From: Catellatospora paridis
Lineage (GTDB): Bacteria; Actinomycetota; Actinomycetes; Mycobacteriales; Micromonosporaceae
NCBI RefSeq assembly: GCF_009720365.1
Contig: NZ_WBZD01000017.1
Span: forward strand, 248,001-312,000
DNA length: 64,000 nt
Direction: 5' to 3'
A model generated the notes under the pieces. The model had not been told where the DNA came from. It worked only from the letters and a program-made list of their open reading frames with translations, and ran no database searches. Below, one piece after another: positions 51,448 through 63,320 of the stretch; position 1 is the stretch's first letter, and every line of letters starts with the position of its first letter. The position numbers and the translations under genes are program-made.

Positions 51448-51945
51448 ATGTCGCCGGCCGAGTTCAACGCTCTGCCCGCCCCCGACGCCGAACGCGAGTT
51501 GCTGACCTGCAACGCGTCGAGTGCGTGGGCGCGGGCGGTGGCGGCCGCGCGGCCCTATACGGACCTTGCTGAGCTGCGCGAAGTCGCCGCCGGGGCGGTC
51601 GCGGCACTGTCCTGGCCGGACGTGCGGCAGGCGCTCGACGCCCACCCGCGCATCGGCGCGCGGGCCGCGGGCACGAGCCGCGAGGCGGCCTGGTCGCGGC
51701 GCGAGCAGTCCGGCGCCGCGTCCGCCGACGAGCAGACCGCGGCCGCGCTGGTCGAGGCCAACCGGGCGTACGAGGACCGTTTCGGCCACGTGTTCCTCAT
51801 CTTCGCCAGCGGCAAGTCGGCCGAGCAGATGCTCGCTGCGACCCGGCAGCGGCTGGCCAACGACGAGGCCGCCGAGCGCGACGTGGTACGCCGCGAGCTG
51901 ACGGCGATCACCTTGCTGCGCCTTGATCGGTTGTTCGGGTCGTGA
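51448..51945 (+). CDS. uraD: OHCU decarboxylase
   Basis: 165 residues from ATG 51448; TTG 51436 with a better-spaced G-rich stretch would add four. MSPAEFNALPAPDAERELL, LDAHPRIGARAAGTSREAAW (HPRIG with the catalytic His) and VEANRAYEDRFGHVFLIFASG then the C-terminal REL-x-AI-x-L-LRL are the UraD pattern. It decarboxylates 2-oxo-4-hydroxy-4-carboxy-5-ureidoimidazoline to S-allantoin, the third step after urate oxidase. First gene of the operon; followed by an NTGA-linked pair of mini reading frames. Confidence 0.92.
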   Translation: MSPAEFNALPAPDAERELLTCNASSAWARAVAAARPYTDLAELREVAAGAVAALSWPDVRQALDAHPRIGARAAGTSREAAWSRREQSGAASADEQTAAALVEANRAYEDRFGHVFLIFASGKSAEQMLAATRQRLANDEAAERDVVRRELTAITLLRLDRLFGS

Positions 51946-52028
51946 GCGAGAGCAGCGGGCGAACCATGTCGCAGGTTTTCTCATGCCGCCGACGAGCGCA
52001 ACGAGGAGAAGGCGTGAGCAAGCGATGA
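51942..52028 (+). CDS. Mini-ORF bridging uraD to uraH, first link
   Basis: 28 codons from a GTG that overlaps the uraD stop (GTGA at 51942-51945), ending in a TGA (52026-52028) that overlaps the next mini-ORF in an ATGA. Peptide has no recognised family and includes VFSCRRRAQRGEG. Probably a translation-coupling device rather than a functional peptide; see the matching chain at 62219-62337. Confidence 0.35.
   Translation: MSESSGRTMSQVFSCRRRAQRGEGVSKR
51982..52024 (+). repeat. Repeated intergenic element, copy A
   Basis: 43 nt starting CATGCCGCCGACGAGCGCA and carrying GAGGAGAAGG. It matches copy B (62231-62273) at 38 of 43 positions. The element is GAGCG/AGCGAG-rich, as in intergenic repeats recalled from Micromonosporaceae. 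Confidence 0.6.
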
Positions 52029-52048
52029 CGAGGGGATACGCGGGATGA
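52025..52048 (+). CDS. Mini-ORF bridging uraD to uraH, second link
   Basis: Seven codons (MTRGYAG) from ATG 52025, sharing ATGA with the end of the first link and with the start of uraH (52045). Contains GAGGGG upstream of the uraH ATG. Likely a coupling relay only. Confidence 0.25.
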   Translation: MTRGYAG

Positions 52049-59692: not shown

Positions 59693-60924
59693 TGAAGCCC
59701 GCCGGAACCGACGAGTTCCTCGGGGTGCCGCGCGAGCCGCGCGACGGGGCGGCCCGGGTCCCCGCGCGGGAGCTGGACCGCATCCTGGCCGCGGCCGACG
59801 GGCTGCGCCGCGACCGCTACCCGGGCGAGGAGCCCGGCCGCCAGCCGCTGCACACCGTGTACGTGCCGGCCGACCGGGTGCGCACCGGGCTGGGGCAGCG
59901 CTGGGGCGAGCAGGCGCTGGCCGCGCTGGCCGAGCACGGCCTGCCGTATCCGGACGAGCTGCACGAGCGGATCACCCGCAAGCTGGCCACCGAGCCGATC
60001 GAGGACCTGCGGGTCGACTTCGAGGACGGCTACGGCCGCCGCGAGGACGCCACCGAGGACGCGCACGCCCGCAGCGTCGCCGCATTCCTCGCCGCCCGCC
60101 CGGCCCCGTTCACCGGCGTACGGATCAAGAGCCTGGAGCCCGACACCCGGCCCCGGGCGTTGCGCACCCTCGATCGGCTGCTCGACGCGCTGGGCACCAT
60201 CCCGCCGAACTTCGTGATCACGCTGCCGAAGGTCAGCTCGGTGGAGCAGGTCGAGGCGCTGGTGTGGCTGTGCCGCCACCTCGAACCGGCCGCCGGGCAG
60301 CTGCGCTTCGAGCTGCAGGTGGAGATGCCGCAGGCGATCCTCGGCCCGGACGGGGTCTGCCCGCTGCCCGCGATGATCCATGCGTCCCAGGGGCGCTGCG
60401 TGGGGCTGCACTACGGCACCTACGACTACTCGGCGGCGCTGGGCATCGCGGCGGCGTACCAGTCCATGGAGCATCCCGCCGCCGATCACGCCAAGCAGGT
60501 GATGCAGGTCGCCGCGGCGGGCACGGGGGTGCGCGTGGTCGACGGCTCCACCAACGTGCTGCCGATCGGGGACACCGCCGCCGTGCAGGCCGCCTGGGCG
60601 CTGCACCTGCGCCTGGTCCGCCGCAGCCTGGAACGCGGCTTCTACCAGGGTTGGGACCTGCATCCGGCGCAGCTTCCGACGCGCTACGCGGCCGCGTACG
60701 GCTTCTTCCGCCAGGGCGCGCCGTCGGCCGCGAACCGGTTGCGGGCCTGGCTGGCCGGGCGCGACAGCGCCGCGCAGCGCGACAGTGGTGCGCGCGGCAC
60801 GGGCTACCTGGACGAACCCGCGACGGCGCGGGCGCTGTCCGGATTCCTGCGACGCGCCGTGCTGTGCGGTGCGGTGGATGTCGGCGAATTCGGCATCGAT
60901 CGATCTATGCTGGAGCCGCTGTGA
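59692..60924 (+). CDS. DUF6986/CitE-like aldolase-family protein
   Basis: 410 residues. LRVDFEDGYGRREDATEDAH and FELQVEMPQAILGPDG are the conserved acidic blocks of this HpcH/CitE-like TIM-barrel family (predicted metal ligands Glu and Asp). RCVGLHYGTYDYSAALGIA follows. Found beside malate synthase and allantoinase in this operon, it probably acts on glyoxylate or a ureide-derived C2 unit, but the reaction is unknown. Joined by TGATG upstream and GTGA downstream. Confidence 0.75.
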   Translation: MKPAGTDEFLGVPREPRDGAARVPARELDRILAAADGLRRDRYPGEEPGRQPLHTVYVPADRVRTGLGQRWGEQALAALAEHGLPYPDELHERITRKLATEPIEDLRVDFEDGYGRREDATEDAHARSVAAFLAARPAPFTGVRIKSLEPDTRPRALRTLDRLLDALGTIPPNFVITLPKVSSVEQVEALVWLCRHLEPAAGQLRFELQVEMPQAILGPDGVCPLPAMIHASQGRCVGLHYGTYDYSAALGIAAAYQSMEHPAADHAKQVMQVAAAGTGVRVVDGSTNVLPIGDTAAVQAAWALHLRLVRRSLERGFYQGWDLHPAQLPTRYAAAYGFFRQGAPSAANRLRAWLAGRDSAAQRDSGARGTGYLDEPATARALSGFLRRAVLCGAVDVGEFGIDRSMLEPL

Positions 60925-62222
60925 ACTACGACCTCATCCTGCGCTCGCACCGCACGCTCACCCCGGACGGTGAGCGGCCCGCCGACGTCGGCATCCGCGA
61001 CGGCGTCATCGCCGCGGTAGCCGGGTTCCAGGCGCTGGCCGGCAACGACGCCATCGACCTGGGGGACTGCGCGCTGCTGCCCGGCCTGGTCGACACCCAC
61101 GTGCACGTCAACGAGCCGGGGCGCACCCAGTGGGAGGGCTTCGACAGCGCCACCCGGGCGGCCGCCGCGGGCGGCGTGACGACCATCGTCGACATGCCGC
61201 TGAACTCGGTTCCGCCGACGGTCGACGTGCAGGCGCTGCACGTCAAGCGCGCCGCGGCCGTCGAGCAGTGCTTCGTGGACGTCGGTTTCTGGGGCGGCGC
61301 CGTGCCCGGCAACGCCCGGCAGCTGCCCGCACTGCATCAGCAGGGCGTGTTCGGGTTCAAGGCGTTCCTCATCGACTCGGGTGTGCCCGAGTTCCCGCCG
61401 CTGGACCCGGCCGGGCTGGAGGAGGCGCTCGGCGCGGTCGACGCGCTGTTCGTGCTGCACGCCGAGGACCCGTCGCTGGTCACCGCCGCGCATGGCGACC
61501 ACTTCGCGGACTTCGTCGCCTCGCGCCCGCCGCGGGCCGAGCGCCGGGCCGTCGCCGCCGTGATCGAAGCGGCCCAGCGCACCGGGGCGCGGGTGCACAT
61601 CCTGCACCTGGCCGCCGCCGACGCGCTCCCGCTGATCGCCGCGGCCCGCCGGGAGGGCGTCCGCATCACCGCCGAGACCTGCCCGCACTACCTGACCCTG
61701 GACGCGTCCCAGGTGCCCGACGGCGCCACGCAGTACAAGTGCTGCCCGCCGATCCGGGACAAGTCCCATCAGGACGCGCTGTGGCAGGCGCTGGCCGACG
61801 GCGTGATCGACTGCGTGGTGTCCGACCACTCGCCGTGCCCGCCCGAGCTGAAGGCGGGCGACTTCGGCACCGCCTGGGGCGGGATCGCGTCCGTGCAGCT
61901 CGGGCTGCCGCTGATCTGGACCGCGGCGGCGCAGCGCGGGCACAGCCTCGCCGACGTGGTGCGCTGGATGGCCGGCAACACCGCGGACCTGGTCGGCCTG
62001 CCCCGCAAGGGGCGCATCGTCGAGGGCGCCGACGCGGACCTGGTCGCCTTCGACCCGGACGCCGAGTTCACCGTCGACGCGACGCGGCTGCTGCACCGGC
62101 ACCACGTCTCGCCGTACGACGGCCGCCACCTGCGCGGCGTCGTCCGCGACACCTGGCTGCGCGGCCGCCTCGCCGGCGTCGAGCCGATCGGCCGCCTGAT
62201 CCGGCCGGGAGGCGGTGCATGA
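60921..62222 (+). CDS. allB: Allantoinase
   Basis: 433 residues. LLPGLVDTHVHVNEPGRTQWEGF holds the first metal HxH; GVFGFKAFLIDSGVPEFP contains the carbamylated Lys; HAEDPSL, HILHLAAADA and VSDHSPCPPELK (catalytic Asp) complete the cyclic amidohydrolase set. Hydrolyses allantoin to allantoate. GTG start shares GTGA with the preceding gene; its TGA shares ATGA with the first bridging mini-ORF. Confidence 0.96.
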   Translation: MNYDLILRSHRTLTPDGERPADVGIRDGVIAAVAGFQALAGNDAIDLGDCALLPGLVDTHVHVNEPGRTQWEGFDSATRAAAAGGVTTIVDMPLNSVPPTVDVQALHVKRAAAVEQCFVDVGFWGGAVPGNARQLPALHQQGVFGFKAFLIDSGVPEFPPLDPAGLEEALGAVDALFVLHAEDPSLVTAAHGDHFADFVASRPPRAERRAVAAVIEAAQRTGARVHILHLAAADALPLIAAARREGVRITAETCPHYLTLDASQVPDGATQYKCCPPIRDKSHQDALWQALADGVIDCVVSDHSPCPPELKAGDFGTAWGGIASVQLGLPLIWTAAAQRGHSLADVVRWMAGNTADLVGLPRKGRIVEGADADLVAFDPDAEFTVDATRLLHRHHVSPYDGRHLRGVVRDTWLRGRLAGVEPIGRLIRPGGGA

Positions 62223-62266
62223 GCGTCCGCCATGCCGCCGACGAGCGCAGCGGGGAGAGGGCATGA
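62219..62266 (+). CDS. Mini-ORF bridging allB to alc, first link
   Basis: 15 codons (MSVRHAADERSGERA) from ATG 62219, overlapping the allB stop (ATGA) and ending in a TGA that overlaps the second link (ATGA). Contains GGGGAGAGG before the next ATG. Probably a re-initiation relay. Confidence 0.35.
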   Translation: MSVRHAADERSGERA

Positions 62267-62273
62267 GCGAGCG
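62231..62273 (+). repeat. Repeated intergenic element, copy B
   Basis: 38 of 43 positions match copy A in the uraD-uraH gap. A partial third copy (GCCGGCGACGAGCGTAGCGA and GGAGTGGGCATGAGC) covers 62305-62339 and supplies the Shine-Dalgarno and start codon of alc. Confidence 0.65.
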
Positions 62274-62337
62274 GAGCGAGCGAATCAGCAGGCATGGCAC
62301 TCGCGCCGGCGACGAGCGTAGCGAGGAGTGGGCATGA
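62263..62337 (+). CDS. Mini-ORF bridging allB to alc, second link
   Basis: 24 codons from ATG 62263 (MSERSERISRHG, ending GDERSEEWA); its TGA overlaps the alc ATG at 62334 (ATGA). The C-terminal DERS-E pattern repeats that of the first link because both arise from the same repeated DNA element. Confidence 0.35.
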   Translation: MSERSERISRHGTRAGDERSEEWA

Positions 62338-63320
62338 GCTTCGAGGAGCTGCTCGACCTCGCGTCGCGGGCCGTCGGCGGCAGCGTCGTCGGGGCCAACG
62401 ACGAGTTCTTCGCCGAGCGCGACAACCTGGTCAACCCGTGGGCGCCGACCTTCACCCCGCGCACCTTCGGCGCGAAAGGCCAGGTGTACGACGGCTGGGA
62501 GACCCGTCGCCGCCGCGAACCCGGCCACGACCACGCCCTGCTCCGGCTCGGCGCGCCCGGTCACGTACACGGCGTCGTCGTCGACACCGCGTTCTTCACC
62601 GGCAACTACCCGCCCGAGGCGTCCGTCGAGGGCTGCCGGGCCGACGGCTACCCCTCGCCCGCCGAGCTGGCCGACGCGGACTGGTTCCCGCTGGTCGAGC
62701 GCTCGGCACTGCTGGGCGACACCCGCAACCGCTTCCCGGTCGACGCGGGGCCGCTGGTCACCCATGTCCGGCTGACCATCCACCCCGACGGCGGCGTGGC
62801 CCGGCTGCGGGTGCACGGCACCCCGGCCCCCGATCCGCGCCTGCTGCCCGACACCGTCGACCTCGCCGCCGCCGAGCTGGGCGGCCGGGTCGTCGACTGC
62901 AGCGACCGGTTCTACGGCTCACCCGGCAACCTGCTGCTGCCCGCACTCGCGGCCAGCATGGGCGAGGGCTGGGAGACCCGGCGGCGGCGCGACGGCGGCA
63001 ACGACTGGGTCCAGGTGCGGCTCGCCGCGGCCGGCGTGATCGCGCTGGCCGAGCTGGACACCTCGCACTTCAAAGGCAACGCCCCCGGCTGGGCGGCGCT
63101 GACCGGGCCCGGCGGCGAACCGCTGCTGGCGCGCACCCGGCTGCAGCCCGACACCCGCCACCGGTTCCGCCTGTCGTACGACGGCCCGGTCGACGGGGCA
63201 CGCCTGGACATCTACCCCGACGGCGGCATGGCCCGGCTGCGCCTGTACGGCAGCCTGACGGCCTCCGCCCGGGACAGACTCGCCGCACCGTGGACGGATC
63301 AGGAGGCTGGGGGAGGCTGA
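62334..63320 (+). CDS. alc: Allantoicase
   Basis: 328 residues made of two similar halves: GQVYDGWETRRRREPGHDHAL and EGWETRRRRDGGNDWVQVRL, with VVVDTAFFTGNYPPEA and AELDTSHFKGNAPGW, and HPDGGVARLRVHG and YPDGGMARLRLYG. This internal duplication is typical of allantoicase. Converts allantoate to ureidoglycolate and urea. Shine-Dalgarno GAGGAG stands 5 nt before the ATG. Confidence 0.96.
   Translation: MSFEELLDLASRAVGGSVVGANDEFFAERDNLVNPWAPTFTPRTFGAKGQVYDGWETRRRREPGHDHALLRLGAPGHVHGVVVDTAFFTGNYPPEASVEGCRADGYPSPAELADADWFPLVERSALLGDTRNRFPVDAGPLVTHVRLTIHPDGGVARLRVHGTPAPDPRLLPDTVDLAAAELGGRVVDCSDRFYGSPGNLLLPALAASMGEGWETRRRRDGGNDWVQVRLAAAGVIALAELDTSHFKGNAPGWAALTGPGGEPLLARTRLQPDTRHRFRLSYDGPVDGARLDIYPDGGMARLRLYGSLTASARDRLAAPWTDQEAGGG

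Follow-up and report, generated by a model that had tools for sequence, protein, structure and literature searches.

The gap between the allantoinase gene allB and the allantoicase gene alc in the window, by which we mean the whole 64,000-nt stretch of Catellatospora paridis DNA analysed here, consists of one and a half copies of a dispersed repeat (62219-62337; a truncated 44-bp copy followed by a full copy of 71 bp). We read this repeat, with a probability of about 0.86, as a MIRU-type mobile element, small and apparently non-autonomous, that acts as a portable micro-cistron and relays ribosomes. The kind of element is already known, since mycobacterial MIRUs are described in the same terms in the available parts of PMC12548453. 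Apparently new are its spread over at least 26 genus-level labels and its covarying terminal hairpins, which have RTGA at their feet and contain G.A pairs.

All features of the gap lie on the plus strand. The stop of allB (60921..62222; NCBIfam TIGR03178, AllB) is the TGA within the first ATGA, and alc (NCBIfam TIGR02961, allantoicase) occupies 62334..63320; both protein matches exceed the NCBIfam cut-off. ATGA tetranucleotides at 62219, 62263 and 62334 link the end of allB to the start of alc through two micro-ORFs, which bears out the relay of 15 and 24 codons proposed in the initial annotation. The truncated unit (62219..62262) runs from ATGA to ATGA and is mostly the right half of the element; the first micro-ORF (62219..62266, 15 codons, MSVRHAADERSGERA and a stop) overlaps the allB stop with its start. 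The second (62263..62337, 24 codons, MSERSERISRHGTRAGDERSEEWA and a stop) starts with the full unit (62263..62333) and overlaps the alc start with its stop. At the left end of the full unit lies a hairpin, RTGAGCGAGC-NNN-GCGAGCGAAY (62263..62285), in which A62263 pairs with T62285, the positions that are columns 0 and 22 of the covariation analysis below. The right end is an imperfect palindrome identified by family covariation (62293..62336, with arms from 62293 and to 62336), which encloses both the alc start and the Shine-Dalgarno-like core AGGAG (62324..62328, 5 nt before the alc ATG), itself recognised from the sequence and a family statistic. The palindrome of this copy has a shifted register, without the usual Y-R pair, and its minimum-energy DNA fold has a z of 0.76. 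No Rfam family was detected within 60800-62600, up to E 1.

The repeat recurs throughout the C. paridis genome (8.97 Mb, 35 contigs). A pattern for the left-end core found 67 copies, 34 forward and 33 reverse, and an RTGA-led pattern found 74, with no match in the reversed control of either. The genome-wide search with mismatches suggested earlier, for which the right-half element was lengthened to 27 nt and allowed up to 3 mismatches, returned 76 copies (42/34 by strand) and a single match in its reversed control; the copy sets from the different patterns overlap. The consensus of the 52 copies of 68, 71 or 74 bp reads RTGAGCGAGCGCAGCGAGCGAATCATG, a variable middle, then TGCCGCCGACGAGCGCAGCGAGGAGAAGGCRTGA, and the micro-ORF peptide has the form MSERSERI...DERSEE.. 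followed by a stop. A right end was recognised in 56 of the 67 copies, the other 11 being excluded from the length count, and 54 of these 56 lengths are 2 mod 3; a micro-ORF runs from the left RTGA to a stop in the right RTGA in 53 of the 56 two-ended units. For the length rule, the binomial p against an expectation of 1/3 is 1e-23, for copies that are not independent. The Shine-Dalgarno-like tracts that had been remarked on recur in each of the 52 units used for the consensus, where a core reading AGGAG, GAGG or GGAGG sits 4-7 nt before the right start codon. In a sample of named records (at least 117 stretches, 80 loci read, genus labels taken from record titles), the right-end pattern fits 31 of 96 units among the matches listed; the length is 2 mod 3 in 26 of the 31 and 0 mod 3 in the other 5. 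Pseudonocardia MAG units L174 and L207, with a length or period of 75 bp (0 mod 3), are exceptions to the frame rule.

A diverged GTGA-type copy lies in the uraD-uraH gap of the window (51942..52048). We recovered the reported match of 38 out of 43 nucleotides between the two gaps (62231 against 51982); as a control, 295 pairs of 122-bp segments drawn at random from the window gave 43-mer matches of 30/43 at best, with a mean of 24. The initial annotation further held that the uraD-uraH copy is read in another frame, so that the nucleotide element and not the peptide is shared. The reading in another frame is correct, because 72 bp (0 mod 3) separate the GTGA ends of that copy; the frame does matter, since nearly all two-ended units keep it. 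In this odd 72-bp copy the relay to uraH is restored, running from GTGA 51942 through ATGA 52025 to ATGA 52045.

The 67 copies fall into 59 arrays, 8 of which hold two recognised units, and their placement follows genes, which were called without annotation, using open reading frames and the GC content of third positions within flanks of 240 nt. The right RTGA was the exact start of the downstream gene in 45 of the 59 arrays and the left RTGA the exact stop of the upstream gene in 30; both ends were exact in 25/59, against 44/3885 for control RTGA sites at the same loci. Right flanks were sense in 53 arrays, antisense in 1 and unassigned in 5, and left flanks were sense in 31, antisense in 2 and unassigned in 26, figures that are low on the left, where the window array itself counts as unassigned because of the truncated unit upstream of it. 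Random placement on both strands without start/stop overlap, named earlier as the outcome that would speak against a coupling element, was not found. The downstream gene was not exactly abutted in 14/59 arrays, and 29/59 had no recognised gene stop at the left RTGA; some of these arrays are tandem or truncated, and others may be leader insertions. Among the matches listed for the named records, 92 of 95 units were examined for NTGA ends (the remaining ones lay too close to the locus end), and in 77 of them a micro-ORF no longer than 45 codons terminates at NTGA, which opens a gene in 64. The corresponding counts at loci of a Mycobacterium-like genus (that of genome G038) were 11/18 and 6/18.

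Coupling by relay is the best-supported function of the repeat. On this reading it inserts at an RTGA stop/start overlap and comes to be flanked by RTGA on both sides; its length of 2 mod 3 gives an ORF, mostly of 23-25 codons, from the left RTGA to the right one, and its right end places a Shine-Dalgarno core 4-7 nt ahead of the downstream start. A ribosome that terminates at allB could reinitiate on the first micro-ORF, terminate again at the following RTGA, pass the second unit and reinitiate on alc, and insertion therefore need not break translational coupling. Translation of the micro-ORFs, and coupling as the trait under selection, are inferred from the sequences.

The earlier suggestion of a mobile or amplified coupling element gains support from bare RTGA sites in relatives as well as from the gene-oriented placement. 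At allB-alc, a bare ATGA overlap is present in the same-genus genomes G350, G354 and G355, G348 has one full 71-bp unit, and some other relatives have inserts without a clear element. Bare RTGA was found at four junctions, which were our choice from the 59 arrays and were compared across genomes of one genus that are not independent, and its first base R matches the element type in most rows at three of them. L055, an insertion of GTGA type, corresponds to a bare GTGA in G348, G347 and G350 and to a bare ATGA in G354; for L057, also of GTGA type, the bare site is GTGA in G346, G353, G349 and G352 and ATGA in G347. The L057 flank in G349, G352 and C. paridis itself is an older right-end remnant, and loss or gain of a tandem unit in G349/G352 is possible. 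At L039, which carries an ATGA-type element, the bare site in G353, G354 and G355 is GTGA and mismatches the element type. In these alignments identical rows were printed once, partial rows and the spurious L389 (contig end) were set aside, and for G347 at L039 the start was taken to be the GTGA that precedes the aligned start by three bases.

The relay from upstream stop to downstream start is complete in 21 of the 22 inserts at the four junctions, a count that omits the ambiguous G348 and G351 rows at L057. It is kept in 9 of the 10 inserts without recognisable element sequence, and the only insert that lacks it is the 84-bp one at allB-alc in G346. The 7-nt terminal palindrome has two or more mismatches in all 10 element-less inserts and in 5 of the 12 element-like ones. 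At these junctions the frame outlasts the element sequence, and there is a hint, no more, that the hairpin is lost along with that sequence. Such persistence of the frame is evolutionary evidence for coupling as what is kept. Several single inserts deserve mention. The allB-alc junction of G351 (L253) contains a minimal unit of 26 bp with the frame kept, consistent with deletion between two internal GAGCGCAGCGAG repeats. At the L039 ortholog of G352 and G351 (L429/L430), a 125-bp insert unlike the element keeps the coupling frame, and in G352 it has an inverted repeat of its own (GGAAGGGCGCCTT...AAGGCGCCCTTCC); it is perhaps another mobile relay family. In the L057 ortholog of G351 (L408), the downstream N-terminus apparently carries an element remnant fused in frame.

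The case for the terminal hairpins relies on covariation and not on folding energy. The left hairpin reads, in order, RT, GA, GC, GA, GC, a three-base loop, GC, GA, GC, GA and AY, such that Watson-Crick pairs alternate with tandem G.A pairs and the feet contain RTGA. Tandem G.A pairs can be stable. Over 94 distinct left ends from C. paridis and the named records, columns 0 and 22 are the strongest coupled pair (A-T 55, G-C 28, A-C 6, G-T 5), and columns 8-14 are G-C in 92 and A-T in 2; the 95 named units among the matches listed have A-T 49, G-C 39, A-C 4 and G-T 3 at 0-22. In the right ends of 47 distinct C. paridis units, the loop-centred register gave 60 percent Watson-Crick and 27 percent G.A pairs, compared with 14-29 percent Watson-Crick in eight slid registers, and a covariation of 0.036 against at most 0.006 when slid; pair 3-33 is T-A in 35, C-G in 7 and something else in 4 of 46. 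An upstream complement to the last 7 nt, with at most one mismatch, is present in 38/59 C. paridis, 39/73 named and 2/7 Mycobacterium-like distinct units, for which shuffles predict 1.5, 3.2 and 0.4. None of eight sequences folded as DNA was significant (z 1.48 to -1.29). Folded as RNA, two right-end sequences of the same eight stand out (z -2.63 and -3.65), the L131 unit has a z of -1.85 (9 of 200 shuffles), and the remaining folds are not significant, that of the window unit having a z of -0.87. The left hairpin reached significance by folding energy neither as DNA nor as RNA, though the proposed structure is the one of minimum energy when its GTGA form is folded as RNA.

The terminal hairpins may serve movement, expression or both. 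The covariation may be kept by a role in RNA, in which the right hairpin would hide the Shine-Dalgarno core and the start codon until a ribosome translating the micro-ORF opened it; this is compatible with the relay and a rival to guide-paired targeting, and we consider it a serious contender at somewhat below even odds. Coupling via hidden start sites is an accepted model according to PMC12548453, and two typed right ends fold well as RNA with the start codon included. Moreover, G.U makes up 4.1 percent of the right stem (2-14 in slid registers) and A.C 3.6 percent (5-20 slid); A.C is thus further below the slid registers than G.U, as an RNA allows, which leans to RNA. The left hairpin behaves otherwise, as G.T at 0-22 is no commoner than A.C (3 versus 4 of 95; 5 versus 6 of 94). 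Whole units folded as RNA are not exceptional. Every element-less insert mismatches the palindrome, yet 9 of those 10 keep the frame, an argument weakened by the five element-like inserts that mismatch it as well.

The covariation of the terminal hairpins suggests, but does not prove, base-paired recognition of the target, and the fact that R pairs with Y22 even in distant genera, where G.T does not exceed A.C, speaks for a role in movement or in the choice of target. We propose, tentatively and with more doubt than confidence, that MIRU-like elements pick their site by base pairing, taking RTGA into the foot of a terminal hairpin. Within the guide GAAY, the Y would read the target R, as T where the target is ATGA and as C where it is GTGA, and the right end would repeat the pairing with TCAY against RTGA; the element would then be a mobile micro-cistron, perhaps moving as a single strand, that a guide directs to stop/start overlaps across actinomycetes. 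Guide pairing, if true, would explain how MIRUs spread inside operons without breaking them, and the covariation makes the mechanism testable, as it predicts one-base target switching.

Shared ancestry is an improbable source of the 0-22 covariation. On this account GTGA/AACC and ATGA/AATC would be two old subfamilies, and indeed copies within a genome are related by descent, copy counts are not event counts, and in the C. paridis set alone 0-22 ranks fifth, behind four column pairs that lie in the loop and immediately beyond the hairpin. Both R-Y states nevertheless occur in 10 of at least 26 genus-level labels (some at family or MAG level, one Mycobacterium), including, among the matches listed, Micromonospora (9 and 9, plus one G-T) and Nocardia (7 and 7), and the two Nocardia forms share, by eye, genus-typical bodies. 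Both also occur in the diverged family of the Mycobacterium-like genus, where the form RTGAGCGANGCNNGCGAGCGAAY has A-T in 31 and G-C in 11 of 42 strings, tandem and related copies included; the reversed control of that scan matched 14/148 genomes, making single matches uninformative, and the 42 strings share a tighter form. Compensating changes at columns 8-14 and at right-end pair 3-33 further disfavour two subfamilies.

It is very unlikely that the micro-peptide itself is the selected product. Intact units do encode similar peptides, but the loop codon takes many forms (among them GCA, ATC, TTC, CTC and TAC), the middle differs between units in both sequence and length, different peptides serve in the element-less inserts that keep the relay, and NCBIfam has no match to the peptide. 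For annotation there is a warning here: micro-ORFs in actinomycete operons may in many cases be mobile relays and not conserved peptides. That the gaps are ordinary intergenic sequence, similar by chance or GC bias in a GC-rich genome with common purine-rich words, is refuted for practical purposes by 67-76 copies versus 0-1 in reversed controls and by the bare sites in relatives.

As a portable relay, the window element works like a MIRU. According to a 2025 review (PMC12548453), MIRUs appear mobile, insert at start codons and hold an ORF that is coupled to the gene at a spacing of -4; like them, the window element is a short repeat (40-100 bp) found at many loci and often in tandem (PMC12548453 and PMC2734929). 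The original MIRU report, judging by its title in a reference list, concerned a two-component operon locus. The window element likewise lies in sense between co-oriented genes, with ORF ends overlapping by -4 and a tetranucleotide on both sides. It differs in its host families, in its lengths (68, 71, 74, 77 and 80 bp) and in the R-Y covariation between a target base and an internal base. The 1997 MIRU paper (Supply et al.) reportedly describes no dyad symmetry, a feature that the right-end palindrome gives the window family; this is one ground for treating the family as a variant, although lack of dyad symmetry may not truly define MIRUs.

The C. paridis RegX3, used as query, matched in 146/148 genomes of G038's genus, and 45 of 50 junction loci were readable. 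Some senX3-regX3 junctions there carry 53-bp units, ATGACYCGCGCCGACGACGATGCAGAGCGAAGCGATGAGGAGGAGTGGCGC plus two variable bases, which are clearly tandem in L372, L373, L354 and L356. These units (lengths counted by eye) are 2 mod 3, are bounded by ATGA, and contain both a GAGGAG tract and the core CA-GA-GC(GAA)GC-GA-TG. We take senX3-regX3 to be the two-component operon of the MIRU report and, since the 53-bp units sit at this original MIRU locus, we infer that the genus of G038 is Mycobacterium. By eye, a GAGCGNAGCGA core and a GAGGAG tract seem to be shared by the window family and the senX3-regX3 units; the left-end hairpin is present in the former and absent from the 53-bp units. We therefore file the window element as a variant, on account of its extra left hairpin and base covariation, its kinship to the classical MIRU having been compared only by eye. 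Near position 4000 of L061, an element unit lies, by eye, between response regulator- and histidine kinase-like genes, recalling the senX3-regX3 MIRU.

Other known systems share single features with the element. In IS200/IS605, internal guide bases match the target. REP/BIME elements, which go with REP-associated tyrosine transposases, resemble the window family in having non-autonomous copies with terminal hairpins adjoining a tetranucleotide; the window stem differs from REP and IS200/IS605 in its tandem G.A pairs, and the window unit is a micro-ORF. RTGA-coupled small ORFs, in which the TGA overlaps the RTG start of the next gene, are over-represented in mycobacteria according to PMC4633059; they are described there as single ORFs and not as a dispersed repeat, and its main text does not mention MIRU. 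A Y1 transposase was considered as the mobiliser, and no tie to copy number was seen in 61 genomes: 13 of the 61 have a match, C. paridis has two partial matches only, and G352 has 30 element copies and no match. Neither hairpin-core pattern occurred in 17 Y1 loci, 5 of which had the loose TCAY...RTGA pattern. No mobilising enzyme was found among these candidates, which leaves room for a lost or Y1-unrelated one.

The element belongs to a wider MIRU-like family across actinomycetes, with bare insertion sites documented. The RTGA-led pattern was found in 23 of 61 relatives, C. paridis included, and all 10 same-genus genomes searched carry the element in 5 to 60 copies; phylum-wide it was found in 5 of 346 genomes, again with C. 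paridis included, three of the others having a single two-mismatch match. The named genera include at least Catellatospora, Micromonospora, Phytohabitans, Plantactinospora, Nocardia, Nonomuraea, Microbispora, Actinoallomurus, Actinopolymorpha, Aeromicrobium, Nocardioides, Pseudonocardia and one Mycobacterium, besides others, and the named Catellatospora records have the same element type as the window. Among the matches listed in a search of open-access titles and abstract starts, none described the element outside mycobacteria; a sequence match in the available part of PMC10886168 is a primer and not the element, and MIRU is among the terms absent from the text of PMC2229807. Finally, the Mycobacterium-like loci L319, L320 and L321 contain a second, 65-bp tandem MIRU-like family, whose bulged left hairpin (RTGAGCGANGCTTGCGAGCGAAY) has the same R-Y linkage.
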